This document shows, piece after piece, positions 2,724-28,294 of a DNA stretch of 33,465 nucleotides (position 1 is its first letter; the number at the start of each line of letters is the position of its first letter). Below the pieces are notes generated by a model. The model saw nothing but the letters and a program-made list of their open reading frames with translations, did not search any database and was not told where the DNA came from. This DNA comes from a bacterium (GTDB lineage: Bacteria; RBG-13-66-14). The stretch covers positions 1 through 33,465 of the forward strand of contig DATKYS010000126.1 of NCBI GenBank assembly GCA_035528375.1, given 5' to 3'. Made by a program: the position numbers and the translations under genes.

Positions 2724-3737
2724 TTACTCACCCAATTTATGAATTGGAGATTCGTACTTGGGTTCATATAACTGGAAGAAGTGCTGCGTAAAGTCATCAT
2801 ATTGTAGTGCAAAACCAACCACATCAAAGCTTATCTGAAATCCTGTCCAAAAGGCGCCCCAACCAGGATTAGCGGTATTAGCAAACATCCCAAAAACATT
2901 TCCAGCAGCTGAAAGGCCAAGGCCCGCTATACCATGATGAATAAACATCGGTAAAGCACCTTCTAAACCGCTGAAGGAAGGGTTGCGCATGGTAAGATTG
3001 CAGTTTTGCAGACTGTTCATAATAATAGATGAATAGTTGCTGAATGAATTCCAGGAAAATTCTTGAAGTGAGAATAAACTTGATGAAAAGCCACCTGTAA
3101 GTAACATGATCTGATTAGTAGCTCCCGTAACTAAACCTGCAAGAAACCCTGACATCAAACCTTCACCAAAGTCAATATTCTCATTGAATAATGATGCGAC
3201 TCCGCCAATAACCATGCCAGTCATCGCGTCGAGGAAAATGCTTAACGGGTTCAACCCGAGGAACCACGACCAGAAAAACTTGCCGTTAGGGTCTACAAAC
3301 CGTATCGGATTATTCCCCGCGTACGGGTAGCGGTTAATAGCTATCGGGCTTTTGTCGTACTCGAAGTCCGCCGGGTCGCGGGAGAGGAACCGCCCCGTGT
3401 ACGGGTCGTAGTACCGCGCCTGGGCGTAGTAGTGCTCGAAAACGTCCCCGTCCGAATAGTACCCCGTGAACTGGATGGGGTTCTCCCACGCGCCGGGGCA
3501 CACCGGGACGTTGCTGTCCGGCCGGCCGAAGGACTCGTAACTCCCCGTCCACAGAATCCGCTGACCGGGCTTGAGCGGCACCTCAGGCGGCACGGAGAGC
3601 ACCGGCTGGGCCACCACGGCCACCGTCGAGCCCAGGTGGTCCTTCAGGTGCCACCCCAGCTCGTACCCGCCCCACCCGCGGTAGTCGTAGTCTATCGTGC
3701 AAACCACTCCGTTCGCGTCGTTGACGTACTCCCGCAT
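2724..3737 (-). CDS. Short RHS-repeat-associated core protein with variable C-terminal tip
   Basis: The first 150 or so residues hold the conserved end of an RHS/YD-repeat protein: HLKDHLGSTVAVV, then FEHYYAQARYYDPYTGRFLS, RDPADFEYD, and the closing NRYPYAGNNPIRFVDPNG. In the family this core ends a large shell that encloses a C-terminal toxin. Here the shell is absent, with only 337 residues instead of over a thousand. After DPNG comes a tip of about 185 residues, hydrophobic and Gly/Ala-rich, with no motif I recognise. Base composition changes from GC-rich to AT-rich near 3290, at the core/tip boundary, as expected for a swapped tip. An in-frame TGA lies 6 nt before the ATG, with no good ribosome binding site, so this looks like an orphan cassette that may not be translated. 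Confidence 0.75.
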   Translation of the reverse strand: MREYVNDANGVVCTIDYDYRGWGGYELGWHLKDHLGSTVAVVAQPVLSVPPEVPLKPGQRILWTGSYESFGRPDSNVPVCPGAWENPIQFTGYYSDGDVFEHYYAQARYYDPYTGRFLSRDPADFEYDKSPIAINRYPYAGNNPIRFVDPNGKFFWSWFLGLNPLSIFLDAMTGMVIGGVASLFNENIDFGEGLMSGFLAGLVTGATNQIMLLTGGFSSSLFSLQEFSWNSFSNYSSIIMNSLQNCNLTMRNPSFSGLEGALPMFIHHGIAGLGLSAAGNVFGMFANTANPGWGAFWTGFQISFDVVGFALQYDDFTQHFFQLYEPKYESPIHKLGE

Positions 3738-24506: not shown

Positions 24507-25811
24507 ATGCACAAACCGATAATCGTGACCGCCGCCCTCGCCCTGACCGCGGCGCTCTCCCTGGTCATCGCCGCCTCGACGGCCGACGGCCCGGTGCTGA
24601 CCGTCGTCGTCACCAGCGACACCTGGGGGGAGCTGGCCACCTGCGGGTGACCGGCCAACCGGCTGGGCGGGCTGGCGGAGAGAGCCAGCCTGATCGAAAA
24701 CCTGCGCGAAGAGAACCCCGACCTGATTCTCGTGGACACCGGGGACCTCTTCGGCGTGGACGATAAACCCCGCAAGGCGGAGGCGGTGCTCGAGGTATAC
24801 CGTCTGGCCGCCTACGACCTCATCGCCCTGGGCGACCAGGACCTGCTGGGTGGAGAGATGACGCCGGCCCGGCTCCTGGGGATACTCCCCTTCGCCTGTG
24901 CCAACCTGACCCCCCTGGCGAACGACCGGCCCCCCCTCCCGGCAACGCTCATCCTGGAGCGCGGCGGGGTGAAGGTCGGCCTCGCGGCGGTGATTCACCC
25001 CGACTGTTTCTCCACCGGCCCCGACCCGGCCGCGCTGGGCTACGGGGTGTCGGACTGGCAAGAGCCGCTGCGGGAGGCGGTGGCGAATCTCCGGGCCGCG
25101 GGCTGCGACATCGTCATCGTCCTGTCGCACCTGGGCGTACCCGGCGAGGTGGAAATCGCCCAAAATTTCACCGGGGTGGACCTGGTCGTCGGCGGGCATT
25201 CGGGGCTTTTCCGGCGGCAGCCGGAGCTCTCGTACGCGGCGCCCGTCGTGTGGCCCGGCCGGAAGGGGCGCTATGTGGGCGTCGCCCGGCTGAGTCTCGA
25301 TCCCGACACCCTCGGGCGGCTCGTATCCTACGAGGCGATCCCCGTGGACGGCGAGGTGCTCGAGGCGGACCCGGCGACGCGCGCCGTCATCCTGGACTAC
25401 GAGCACGAGCGGTACGCGGACTGGCTGGAGCGCTTCTACAAACCAGAGGGCGAATACGCCTGGCACGGGGCGGATTACTGCGGCGCCTGCCACGCGGACC
25501 AGTACGCCCAATGGTCATCCACCCCCCACGCCCGCGCCTGGGAGTCCCTCGTCGCCACGGGAGACGACCGGAACCTGGAGTGCATCCGGTGCCACGCCAC
25601 CGGTTTCGGCAGGCCCGGCGGCTTCGGCAGCGTGGAGCTGACGCCGCACCTAACCGGGGTCGGCTGCCAGATGTGCCACGAGACCCCGGCTGAGCACCCG
25701 TCGGGCGAGCGGCCGCCGGCGGTCGAGGCGCGCTTCTGCGCCGTCTGCCACAAACCGGGCTACGACGACGACTTCAGCTTTTCCCGGGACGCGGAGCCGG
25801 TCAGCCACTAA
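24507..25811 (+). CDS. Candidate selenoprotein: metallophosphatase (5'-nucleotidase-like) with C-terminal tetraheme cytochrome, TGA at codon 48
   Basis: The frame opens at ATG 24507, has one in-frame TGA at 24648-24650, and ends at 25811 (434 residues if the TGA is read as Sec). Before the TGA are a signal peptide (LALTAALSLVIAASTADG) and VLTVVVTSDTWGELATCG; after it PANRLGGLAERASLI and LILVDTGDLFGVDD. Related metallophosphatase/5'-nucleotidase-like proteins have 'GELEPCGC...GGLxRRA' here, so the TGA replaces the second Cys. Further on come GDQDLLGGEM, VIVLSHLGVPGE and VDLVVGGHS, then four CxxCH heme sites (Cys325, 359, 387, 411) as in cytochrome c554-like domains. Hemes attach in the periplasm, so the signal peptide before the TGA must be translated. 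If the TGA is not recoded this is a pseudogene. Selenium genes are not in the window. Confidence 0.75.
24668..24692 (+). promoter_or_regulatory. SECIS-like stem-loop after the in-frame TGA
   Basis: Stem 24668-24676 pairs with 24684-24692 (core GGCTGGC/GCCAGCC, plus one G-U and one C-G pair). The loop GGAGAGA starts with G. There are 26 nt between the TGA and the loop, within the range known for bacterial SECIS elements, whose loop requires an early G. The RNA is also coding. Confidence 0.6.
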
Positions 25812-25822
25812 AGAGGGACGCG

Positions 25823-26287
25823 GTGGACGAGGAGAAGGTCGTGCGGGCGGTGGACCGGGCCTGCGAACTATTCGCCCGGGAGGGCTACAACTGCGCCATG
25901 GCCGTCATGTCGGCGCTGCTGGAGCTGGCCGACGGCGACCCGCTGGACTACCTCGCCCTGGCCGCCCCCTTCGGCGCCGGCACCGCCCGCGCGGGCCTGA
26001 CCTGCGGCGCGCTGACGGGAGCGGTCATGGCGCTGGGGATGCTCAAGGCCCCCAAAGTCTACAGGAACCGAGAGGCGAAGGAGGATGCTTACCGGCTGTC
26101 CGCGCCGGTGGTGGAAGGCTTCGTGAAGCGGATGGGGTCCGCCCTCTGCGCCGACATCACCGGGGTGGACCTCGCCGACAAGGAGGGGCGGCGCAGGTTC
26201 GTGGAGCTCGACATCCTGGAGCTGAAGTGCGTCCCCGCGGTGGAGCTGGCCGCGCGTCTGGGCGCCGAGGTCATCCTTTCGGATTAA
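25823..26287 (+). CDS. C_GCAxxG_C_C family redox protein
   Basis: The 154-residue product has the family's spaced cysteines: Cys24 in GYNCAMAV, Cys61 in FGAGTARAGLTCGALTGAVM, Cys109 in GSALCADITGVDL and Cys136 in ELKCVPAVE. Members are small cytoplasmic proteins of probable redox or metal function, often near electron-transfer genes; the exact reaction is not known. Cys14 is an extra one. It starts with GTG at 25823, with GAGGGA before it, 11 nt after the cytochrome gene. The two are probably cotranscribed. Its position beside a candidate Sec-containing cytochrome suggests a shared redox role; this is inference. Confidence 0.85.
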   Translation: MDEEKVVRAVDRACELFAREGYNCAMAVMSALLELADGDPLDYLALAAPFGAGTARAGLTCGALTGAVMALGMLKAPKVYRNREAKEDAYRLSAPVVEGFVKRMGSALCADITGVDLADKEGRRRFVELDILELKCVPAVELAARLGAEVILSD

Positions 26288-26293
26288 ATCGTT

Positions 26294-28294
26294 ATGCGCG
26301 TGCGGTTTGTCATCCTTCAACTCCTGACGGCGACGGCCCTGGCCGCCGGCACCCTCGACCCCTTCCTGGAGGCGGAGCTCGACCGCGACCCGGGCTCACC
26401 GGTGCCCGTGGTGGTCGTGATCGCCGAGCGCCCCTGTGACCTCCACCTGGACCGTTACGCAACGGCCCTCGCCCCCGAGGAACGGCGAGCCGCCCGGTGG
26501 GCCGTCCTCCGACAGCTTTGCGGGCGGTCCCAGGCGCCGGTCCTCGACTTCCTCCACCGGCAGGCGCCCGGAGAGGTGGAGGACATCCGGCCCATCGTTT
26601 TATTGAACGCCGTGGGGGCCAGGGTTACGGCCGAAGTCGCCCGGGAGCTGGCCGACCTTCCCGGCGTGGACCGCGTCGTCCTCAGTTCCACTACCGACGA
26701 CGCCCTCTGCTCCTGCGCCGAGATCACCTGGAACGTGGGCCGCGTGGAGGCCCCGCTGGTCTGGAGCGAGCCCTACGGCTACACCGGCGACGGGGTGGTG
26801 GTGGCCGTGGTGGATACCGGCTGCGACTTCGAGCACCCCGACCTGGCCGACCACCCCTGGGTGAATTTTGGCGAGATTCCCGACAACGGCCTCGACGACG
26901 ACGCCAACGGTTACGTTGACGACGTCAACGGCTGGGACTTCTACTACGACGACGGCACCGTTCTGGGGCCCGAGGACGGCCACGGGAGCCACGTGGCGGG
27001 CATCGTGGCCGGCGACGGCAGCGCCGGGTCCCAGACCGGCGTGGCCCCCGACGCCCGCATCATGGCGGTAAAGGTCTTCTCCGACACCGGCCGCGGCACG
27101 GAGTACATCACCTGGGACGGGATGGACTACGCGGTGGAGATGGGCGCCGACGTGTTGAACCTGAGCTTCGGCTGGCACCAGAATCAGACCCACAACCAGC
27201 CGCTGTGGCGCGATGTGTGCCGGACCGCCCTGGAGCTGGGGGTGGTGATAGTGGCCGCGGCGGGGAACGAAGGCGACAAGACGGGCCAGTACCCGCCGCC
27301 CGACAACATCCGTACCCCGGGCGACGTGCCGGAGATAATCACCGTCGGCGCCACCGAGAGCGCGGACGGGGTCACCTTCTTCTCCAGCATCGGTCCCGCG
27401 GAGTGGAGCTTCGACCCGCCCTACGACGACTGGCCCTACCCGCCGGGCTGCATCAAGCCGGACATCTGCGCGCCGGGGGGAACGGTCACGGTGGGCGGGG
27501 GCATCAAGAGCATAGACGGCCGCCGGGGGGGCTACATCAACATGGAGGGCACCTCCATGGCCACGCCCCACGTGGCGGGGGCCGTCGCCCTTCTGCTCCA
27601 GGCCGACCCTTCCCTGACGCCCGAGGAGGTGAAGGACTACCTGGAGCTCTCCGCCCTGGATCTGGGCGAGGCGGGCAAGGACGACTACGCGGGTTACGGT
27701 CGGCTCCAGTGCCTCCTGGCCCTTCTGGCAATGCAGACCGGCCTGCGGTTCAGCGACTTCGGCCTGACCGAGACCGCCGACGGCGTCCTGGCGGACTGGT
27801 CTCTCACCCGCCCCGACCTCGTGGAGGGATACCGTCTGTACCGGAAGGTGGACGACGGCCTCTGGGAGCCGCTGGGCACGGCTTCCGTCGCTACGGGCCC
27901 TTACCTGGACCGCGACGTGGAACGGGGTCGGCAGTACGCCTACCGCGTCGTGGCCCTCGTCTCCGAGGGCGGGGAGCTCTCCCGCGGGCCGGAGACGCTC
28001 ATCTACGGCCAGGGGTTGCCGCCCCCCCGGGCGCTACTGGGCCAACCCTACCCCTCCCCGGCCGACGGCGCGGTGAACTTTCTGCTGACGTTCCCCATAG
28101 ACGCCAGAGTGGAGCTCACGGTCTACGACCTGTCGGGCAGGCGCGTGGCCCGACCCTACGCCGACGAGCACCCCGCCGGCCGGGAAACGGTGACCCTCTC
28201 GACCGACGGTCTGGCGCCGGGGGTGTACCTGGTGGAGCTCACCGATAAAACCAGCGGGGCGAGCACCCTCCGGCGCTTCGTCATCGCCCGGTGA
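26294..28294 (+). CDS. Secreted subtilisin-like (S8) serine protease with type-9-like C-terminal tail
   Basis: The 666-residue product has a signal peptide (MRVRFVILQLLTATALAAG), a propeptide-like region with EVARELADLPGVDRVVLSST (inhibitor I9-like), and the S8 catalytic triad: Asp174 in VVVAVVDTGCDFEHPDL, His230 in GHGSHVAGIVAG, and Ser421 in MEGTSMATPHVAGAV. The oxyanion Asn is in VIVAAAGNEGD. A fibronectin-like domain (VEGYRLYRKVDDGLW) follows, then the sorting tail VELTVYDLSGRRVARPY, GVYLVELTDK, and RRFVIAR. The tail closely parallels that of the metalloprotease at 11083, pointing to a common secretion route. No component of that route is encoded here. The Shine-Dalgarno is weak. It lies 6 nt after the previous gene. 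Confidence 0.93.
   Translation: MRVRFVILQLLTATALAAGTLDPFLEAELDRDPGSPVPVVVVIAERPCDLHLDRYATALAPEERRAARWAVLRQLCGRSQAPVLDFLHRQAPGEVEDIRPIVLLNAVGARVTAEVARELADLPGVDRVVLSSTTDDALCSCAEITWNVGRVEAPLVWSEPYGYTGDGVVVAVVDTGCDFEHPDLADHPWVNFGEIPDNGLDDDANGYVDDVNGWDFYYDDGTVLGPEDGHGSHVAGIVAGDGSAGSQTGVAPDARIMAVKVFSDTGRGTEYITWDGMDYAVEMGADVLNLSFGWHQNQTHNQPLWRDVCRTALELGVVIVAAAGNEGDKTGQYPPPDNIRTPGDVPEIITVGATESADGVTFFSSIGPAEWSFDPPYDDWPYPPGCIKPDICAPGGTVTVGGGIKSIDGRRGGYINMEGTSMATPHVAGAVALLLQADPSLTPEEVKDYLELSALDLGEAGKDDYAGYGRLQCLLALLAMQTGLRFSDFGLTETADGVLADWSLTRPDLVEGYRLYRKVDDGLWEPLGTASVATGPYLDRDVERGRQYAYRVVALVSEGGELSRGPETLIYGQGLPPPRALLGQPYPSPADGAVNFLLTFPIDARVELTVYDLSGRRVARPYADEHPAGRETVTLSTDGLAPGVYLVELTDKTSGASTLRRFVIAR

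Follow-up and report, generated by a model that had tools for sequence, protein, structure and literature searches.

Evidence for a divergent UshA-like selenoprotein with a tetraheme cytochrome module in a genome related to Candidatus Coatesbacteria

A frame on the forward strand of the window (the whole stretch of 33,465 nucleotides that was analysed) contains a TGA codon between a short N-terminal segment and a long open remainder, which raises two questions: whether this codon ends translation or is read as an amino acid, and what kind of protein would result if it is read through. The TGA almost certainly encodes selenocysteine (Sec), which here takes the place of the second Cys in a CGC motif, and we estimate a probability of roughly 0.93 that the locus is a genuine selenoprotein gene belonging to the known UshA-like (seleno)protein family. 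The features of the gene that bear on this reading are as follows.

24507..25811, + strand: predicted complete selenoprotein gene, UshA-like (5'-nucleotidase fold) domain plus tetraheme cytochrome, one Sec (translation; NF041198, E=2.5e-66; Metallophos and Cytochrome_C554 Pfam matches)
24507..24587, + strand: signal-peptide-like N-terminus, approximately residues 1-27, upstream of the TGA (sequence MHKPIIVTAALALTAALSLVIAAST; helix at residues 3-23 in the AF2 model; homologues' N-termini similarly hydrophobic)
24648..24650, + strand: in-frame TGA, read as Sec48, second position of C-G-U (TGA/Cys column in homologues)
24594..25304, + strand: 5'-nucleotidase/metallophosphatase-fold domain with eroded motif residues (NF041198 positions 16-269; Foldseek to CD73, UshA and SoxB, E<=1e-17)
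25479..25784, + strand: tetraheme module, four CxxCH, cytochrome c554-like (PF13435, E=4e-18; 1bvb, E=6.7e-9; NF041198 positions 375-519)

The frame opens with ATG at 24507, closes with TAA at 25809-25811 and comprises 434 residues plus the stop; its translation reads MHKPIIVTAALALTAALSLVIAASTADGPVLTVVVTSDTWGELATCG-TGA-PANRLGGLAERA... up to the TAA, with exactly one internal TGA, at codon 48, in the local context ATCG-TGA-PANRLGGLAERA. A preliminary description of this DNA had given the frame, the position of the TGA and the end at 25811 correctly to the base, and the start that it expected from automated annotation, GTG 24732, is indeed where the longest table-11 ORF of the same frame begins (359 aa). 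When the TGA is read through, the Metallophos Pfam match changes from a sub-threshold E-value of 0.079 to 6.4e-07 and begins at residue 32, which indicates that the DNA on either side of the codon encodes one domain. The metallophosphatase-like blocks proposed in that description are thus recovered as a family match, the signal-peptide-like segment that it placed upstream of the TGA is regained by the same read-through, and the four CxxCH sites are found at residues 325, 359, 387 and 411.

The AF2 model of the read-through product (mean pLDDT 84.9, pTM 0.81) resembles CD73, E. coli UshA and SoxB in Foldseek searches, with E-values of 1e-20 to 1e-17 and TM scores of about 0.5-0.57 normalised by the whole query. 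The Cys46-Gly-Sec48 motif lies just after the strand-1 loop, the normal site of the first metal-binding motif, in a loop modelled with some of the lowest confidence (pLDDT below 50 at residues 49-53). The metal-site motifs DxH and GNHE are not intact: SDTW stands in place of the nucleotidase NDVH and LGDQD in place of LGNHE, such that, relative to solved nucleotidases, D-x-H has its H replaced and GNHE both its N and its H. Motif residues that remain are SD in motif I, GD, SHLG and GGHSG, with SHLG and GGHSG kept in this subgroup. The C-terminal part, with its four CxxCH sites and Cytochrome_C554 family match, has the hallmarks of a c554-type multiheme module.

A redox role is proposed because CxU/CxC is invariant, the metal motifs are partly lost and the domain is fused to hemes, and we lean towards a periplasmic oxidoreductase in which Cys46-x-Sec48 is coupled to the tetraheme module. 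The UGA at 24648-24650 would be read as selenocysteine with the help of SelB, tRNA-Sec and a stem-loop that follows the codon closely, giving a 434-residue protein that would be exported by its N-terminal signal and receive its hemes in the periplasm. Its N-terminal domain would have retained the 5'-nucleotidase/SoxB fold while losing several motif residues and gaining the invariant Cys46-Gly-Sec48 pair, with a tetraheme c554-type module standing in place of the usual C-terminal nucleotidase domain. The Cys/Sec pair may form a selenenylsulfide or bind a substrate, and electrons would pass between Cys46-x-Sec48 and the four hemes, in one direction or the other. We offer more tentatively the idea that a nucleotidase fold has been turned into a redox enzyme, in which a Cys-x-Sec centre, connected directly to the fused tetraheme module, has taken over from the degenerate metal site; periplasmic seleno-oxidoreductases of this kind would be a class not yet characterised, whose substrates might be sulfur or selenium compounds. 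The sequence evidence for a redox role indicates no substrate.

Some of the motif residues remain, and the protein is clearly homologous to 5'-nucleotidases and SoxB and similar to them in fold, as would be expected if the Sec-containing product acted as a nucleotidase or a SoxB-like thiosulfohydrolase, with the hemes serving for docking or structure only. However, the replaced residues of D-x-H and GNHE, together with an invariant CxC/CxU accompanied by four hemes, suggest redox chemistry and make a hydrolase unlikely.

The 359-residue ORF from GTG 24732 is what a real stop would leave, whether as a pseudogene or as an N-terminally shortened protein, but several lines of evidence make this very improbable. 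The codon is kept as TGA in four relatives from the same taxonomic family (L013-L016), at about 90, 69, 51 and 44 % protein identity, and even in the most distant of these the frame around it is conserved and remains open. The short form, moreover, would lack the signal-like N-terminus (required for c-type heme attachment), the first strand and the invariant CGU. Six distant homologues (L026, L027, L028, L030, L034 and L036) also carry TGA, so that, with the window protein left aside, 10 homologues have TGA in this column; all others that share the CxC/CxU motif have Cys, and across a 19-sequence alignment the column is invariant as Cys or Sec. Outside this motif-sharing set are two distant nucleotidase matches without the motif (L035, L039) and a truncated sequence (L017); L048 and L014 are apparently one record, as are L049 and L016, and each pair was counted once. 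The earlier assertion that related proteins have Cys at this position, and the alignment at codon 48 that was suggested as a check on it, are both borne out: every non-TGA homologue sharing the motif has Cys there, and the column is Cys or TGA throughout.

The genome itself, a draft of 2.63 Mb in 144 contigs that is 100% complete, contains the machinery for selenocysteine insertion, which also speaks against a real stop; selA, selB, selC and selD, the genes whose presence had been proposed as a test, are all found. The tRNA-Sec gene (selC) scores 75.3 bits and has a UCA anticodon (G000:C36:5509-5602), and lies directly downstream of, and co-directional with, a SelB-like ORF of full 647 aa (L044:1023-2966). 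SelA matches TIGR00474 at 375 bits, above the curated cut-off (L010:1441-2592, - strand), and SelD scores 328 bits, also above its cut-off (L042:1414-2523, + strand). SelD has an in-frame TGA of its own (VRCSGUAGK), and hence is probably itself a Sec-containing protein. The TIGR00474 match of SelA begins only at about position 68-73, as it also does elsewhere in the phylum, and SelA therefore seems to be without the first ~70 residues of the model.

Among the homologue-bearing genomes, selA and/or tRNA-Sec was found in 11/11 with TGA, the window genome included; the 16 with Cys comprise ten that have one or both and six that have neither, and the genomes lacking both are all Cys-bearing (Fisher p ~0.027, a hand estimate in which relatedness is ignored). 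The four Sec-machinery genes, the TGA/Cys column and the read-through that restores both domain and signal peptide together give strong support to the replacement of Cys by Sec.

Reading of the TGA as some other amino acid, through a suppressor tRNA or global recoding, would account for the open frame alone and can hardly be maintained: TGA serves as the ordinary stop in nine of the 24 neighbouring ORFs of the window that were judged likely genes, so it is not globally reassigned, homologues have Cys at this residue, and the genome encodes a tRNA-Sec whose anticodon matches. A sequencing or assembly error turning TGC or TGG into TGA, conceivable in a draft of so many contigs, is effectively refuted by the identical codon occurring independently in several other assemblies. 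Chance is likewise excluded by the in-frame TGA that the four family-level relatives share with the window gene at 44-91% protein identity.

Bacterial SECIS elements are recognised by the distance of the loop from the TGA and by a G in the apical loop, and the comparison with synonymous recodings given below used these rules. The candidate in the window gene is the following.

24668..24692, + strand: candidate bacterial SECIS, 9 bp stem and a loop of 7 nt, GGAGAGA, that begins ~26 nt past the TGA (fold energy, conserved core)

The region 24648-24700 folds with -29.7 kcal/mol (z -4.35), and a core of the form CUGGC-GGANNNN-GCCRG, with GGA at the start of the loop, is kept in 5/5 family members; the full-length stem is not conserved past this 5 bp core. 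Only 3.4% of synonymous recodings of the window gene fold as well as its apical hairpin, and the same control is not significant in L014-L016, which make up three of the five family members; statistically, the support is clearest in the window gene. As groups, homologues with TGA come out ahead of those with Cys in the recoding test (Mann-Whitney p 0.03, relatedness ignored). Four of the five core base pairs never vary among family members and covariation is therefore uninformative, and synonymous substitutions near the TGA are too few to demonstrate constraint on the RNA. A small apical loop containing guanosine is described for bacterial SECIS elements (PMC1088965), and with moderate confidence a stem-loop of this kind, with its apical-loop G, can be placed just downstream of the TGA.

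The selenoprotein gene is preceded by one for an NAD-dependent DNA ligase and is followed, after 11 nt, by a gene of a putative redox family, the subtilase gene coming next.

25823..26287, + strand: C_GCAxxG_C_C putative redox protein gene, adjacent, probable operon partner (PF09719, E=4e-21; linked in L013, L014/L048 and L016/L049)

The retention of this neighbour in L013, L014/L048 and L016/L049 supports an operon, and the two genes probably form one. Sec forms of the C_GCAxxG_C_C family are known elsewhere, according to a 2026 review (PMC13188914). The subtilase (26294-28291, + strand) is a secreted protein with a Por_Secre_tail C-terminal sorting domain, a hint that the lineage has type IX-like sorting signals. 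Elsewhere in the window, an ORF on the - strand (2724-3737) has, by eye, an RHS-repeat-core-like stretch: YYAQARYYDPYTGRFLSRDPADF.

The preliminary description had presented the protein as a new selenoprotein, and at the level of the family this cannot be upheld. NF041198 (NCBIfam, 'UshA-like (seleno)protein', PCGU) already models the same CxU position and the phosphatase-plus-cytochrome architecture, and such proteins also appear in the literature: UshA-like (COG0737) CxU selenoproteins account for 76 Sec sequences in the 2008 Global Ocean Sampling survey (PMC2398784), are listed in a 2022 review (PMC9312934), and are entered in the 2026 review as NF041198 with CxU (PMC13188914). The protein is thus a divergent member of a known family and not the founder of a new one. 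NF041198 matches both halves of it and recovers the CGU/CGC motif and two-part architecture, at 224.3 bits against a curated cut-off of 275 bits; by NCBI's rule it is hence a family relative and not a member. Among homologues that share this architecture the scores run from 196 to 295 bits, on both sides of the cut-off, and the close relatives of the window genome all fall below it (196-235 bits). The protein apparently represents a divergent UshA-like subgroup that the model would miss, in a lineage apparently unreported and a phylum that has been little studied; since the current cut-off misses it, annotation probably truncates the N-termini of this subgroup.

The literature searched contained no paper treating Coatesbacteria and selenoproteins together, none on the combination of selenoprotein, metallophosphoesterase and cytochrome, and none giving a function for the UshA-like (seleno)protein family; the passages on UshA in PMC2398784, PMC9312934 and PMC13188914 make no mention of a cytochrome fusion. 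With the present locus, a well-supported selenoprotein, together with a full Sec system, is added from a genome whose nearest named relative is Candidatus Coatesbacteria. The design of the protein, joining a phosphatase fold, Cys-x-Sec and four hemes, poses a clear biochemical question.

Compared with NF041198, the protein shares the CxU/CxC position, the metallophosphatase-like domain with a C-terminal multiheme cytochrome region and the occurrence of Sec and Cys forms, whereas it has TCGU and not PCGU, and 434 aa against a model of 519 positions. Similarly, it shares the CxU motif and the UshA-like assignment with the selenoproteins of the Global Ocean Sampling survey and of the two reviews. 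NF049981 (UshA-like (seleno)protein family 2) matches weakly at residues 31-111 (E 1.4e-12), well short of its 140-bit cut-off, and has, according to PMC13188914, a CxxU motif and not CxU. The N-terminal domain has the fold of the 5'-nucleotidases CD73 and UshA and of SoxB; in contrast to these, canonical motif residues and the C-terminal nucleotidase domain have been lost, and CxU and hemes have been gained. The CxxCH tetraheme module is akin by sequence to cytochrome c554 (1bvb), from which it differs in being fused to a phosphatase-fold domain.
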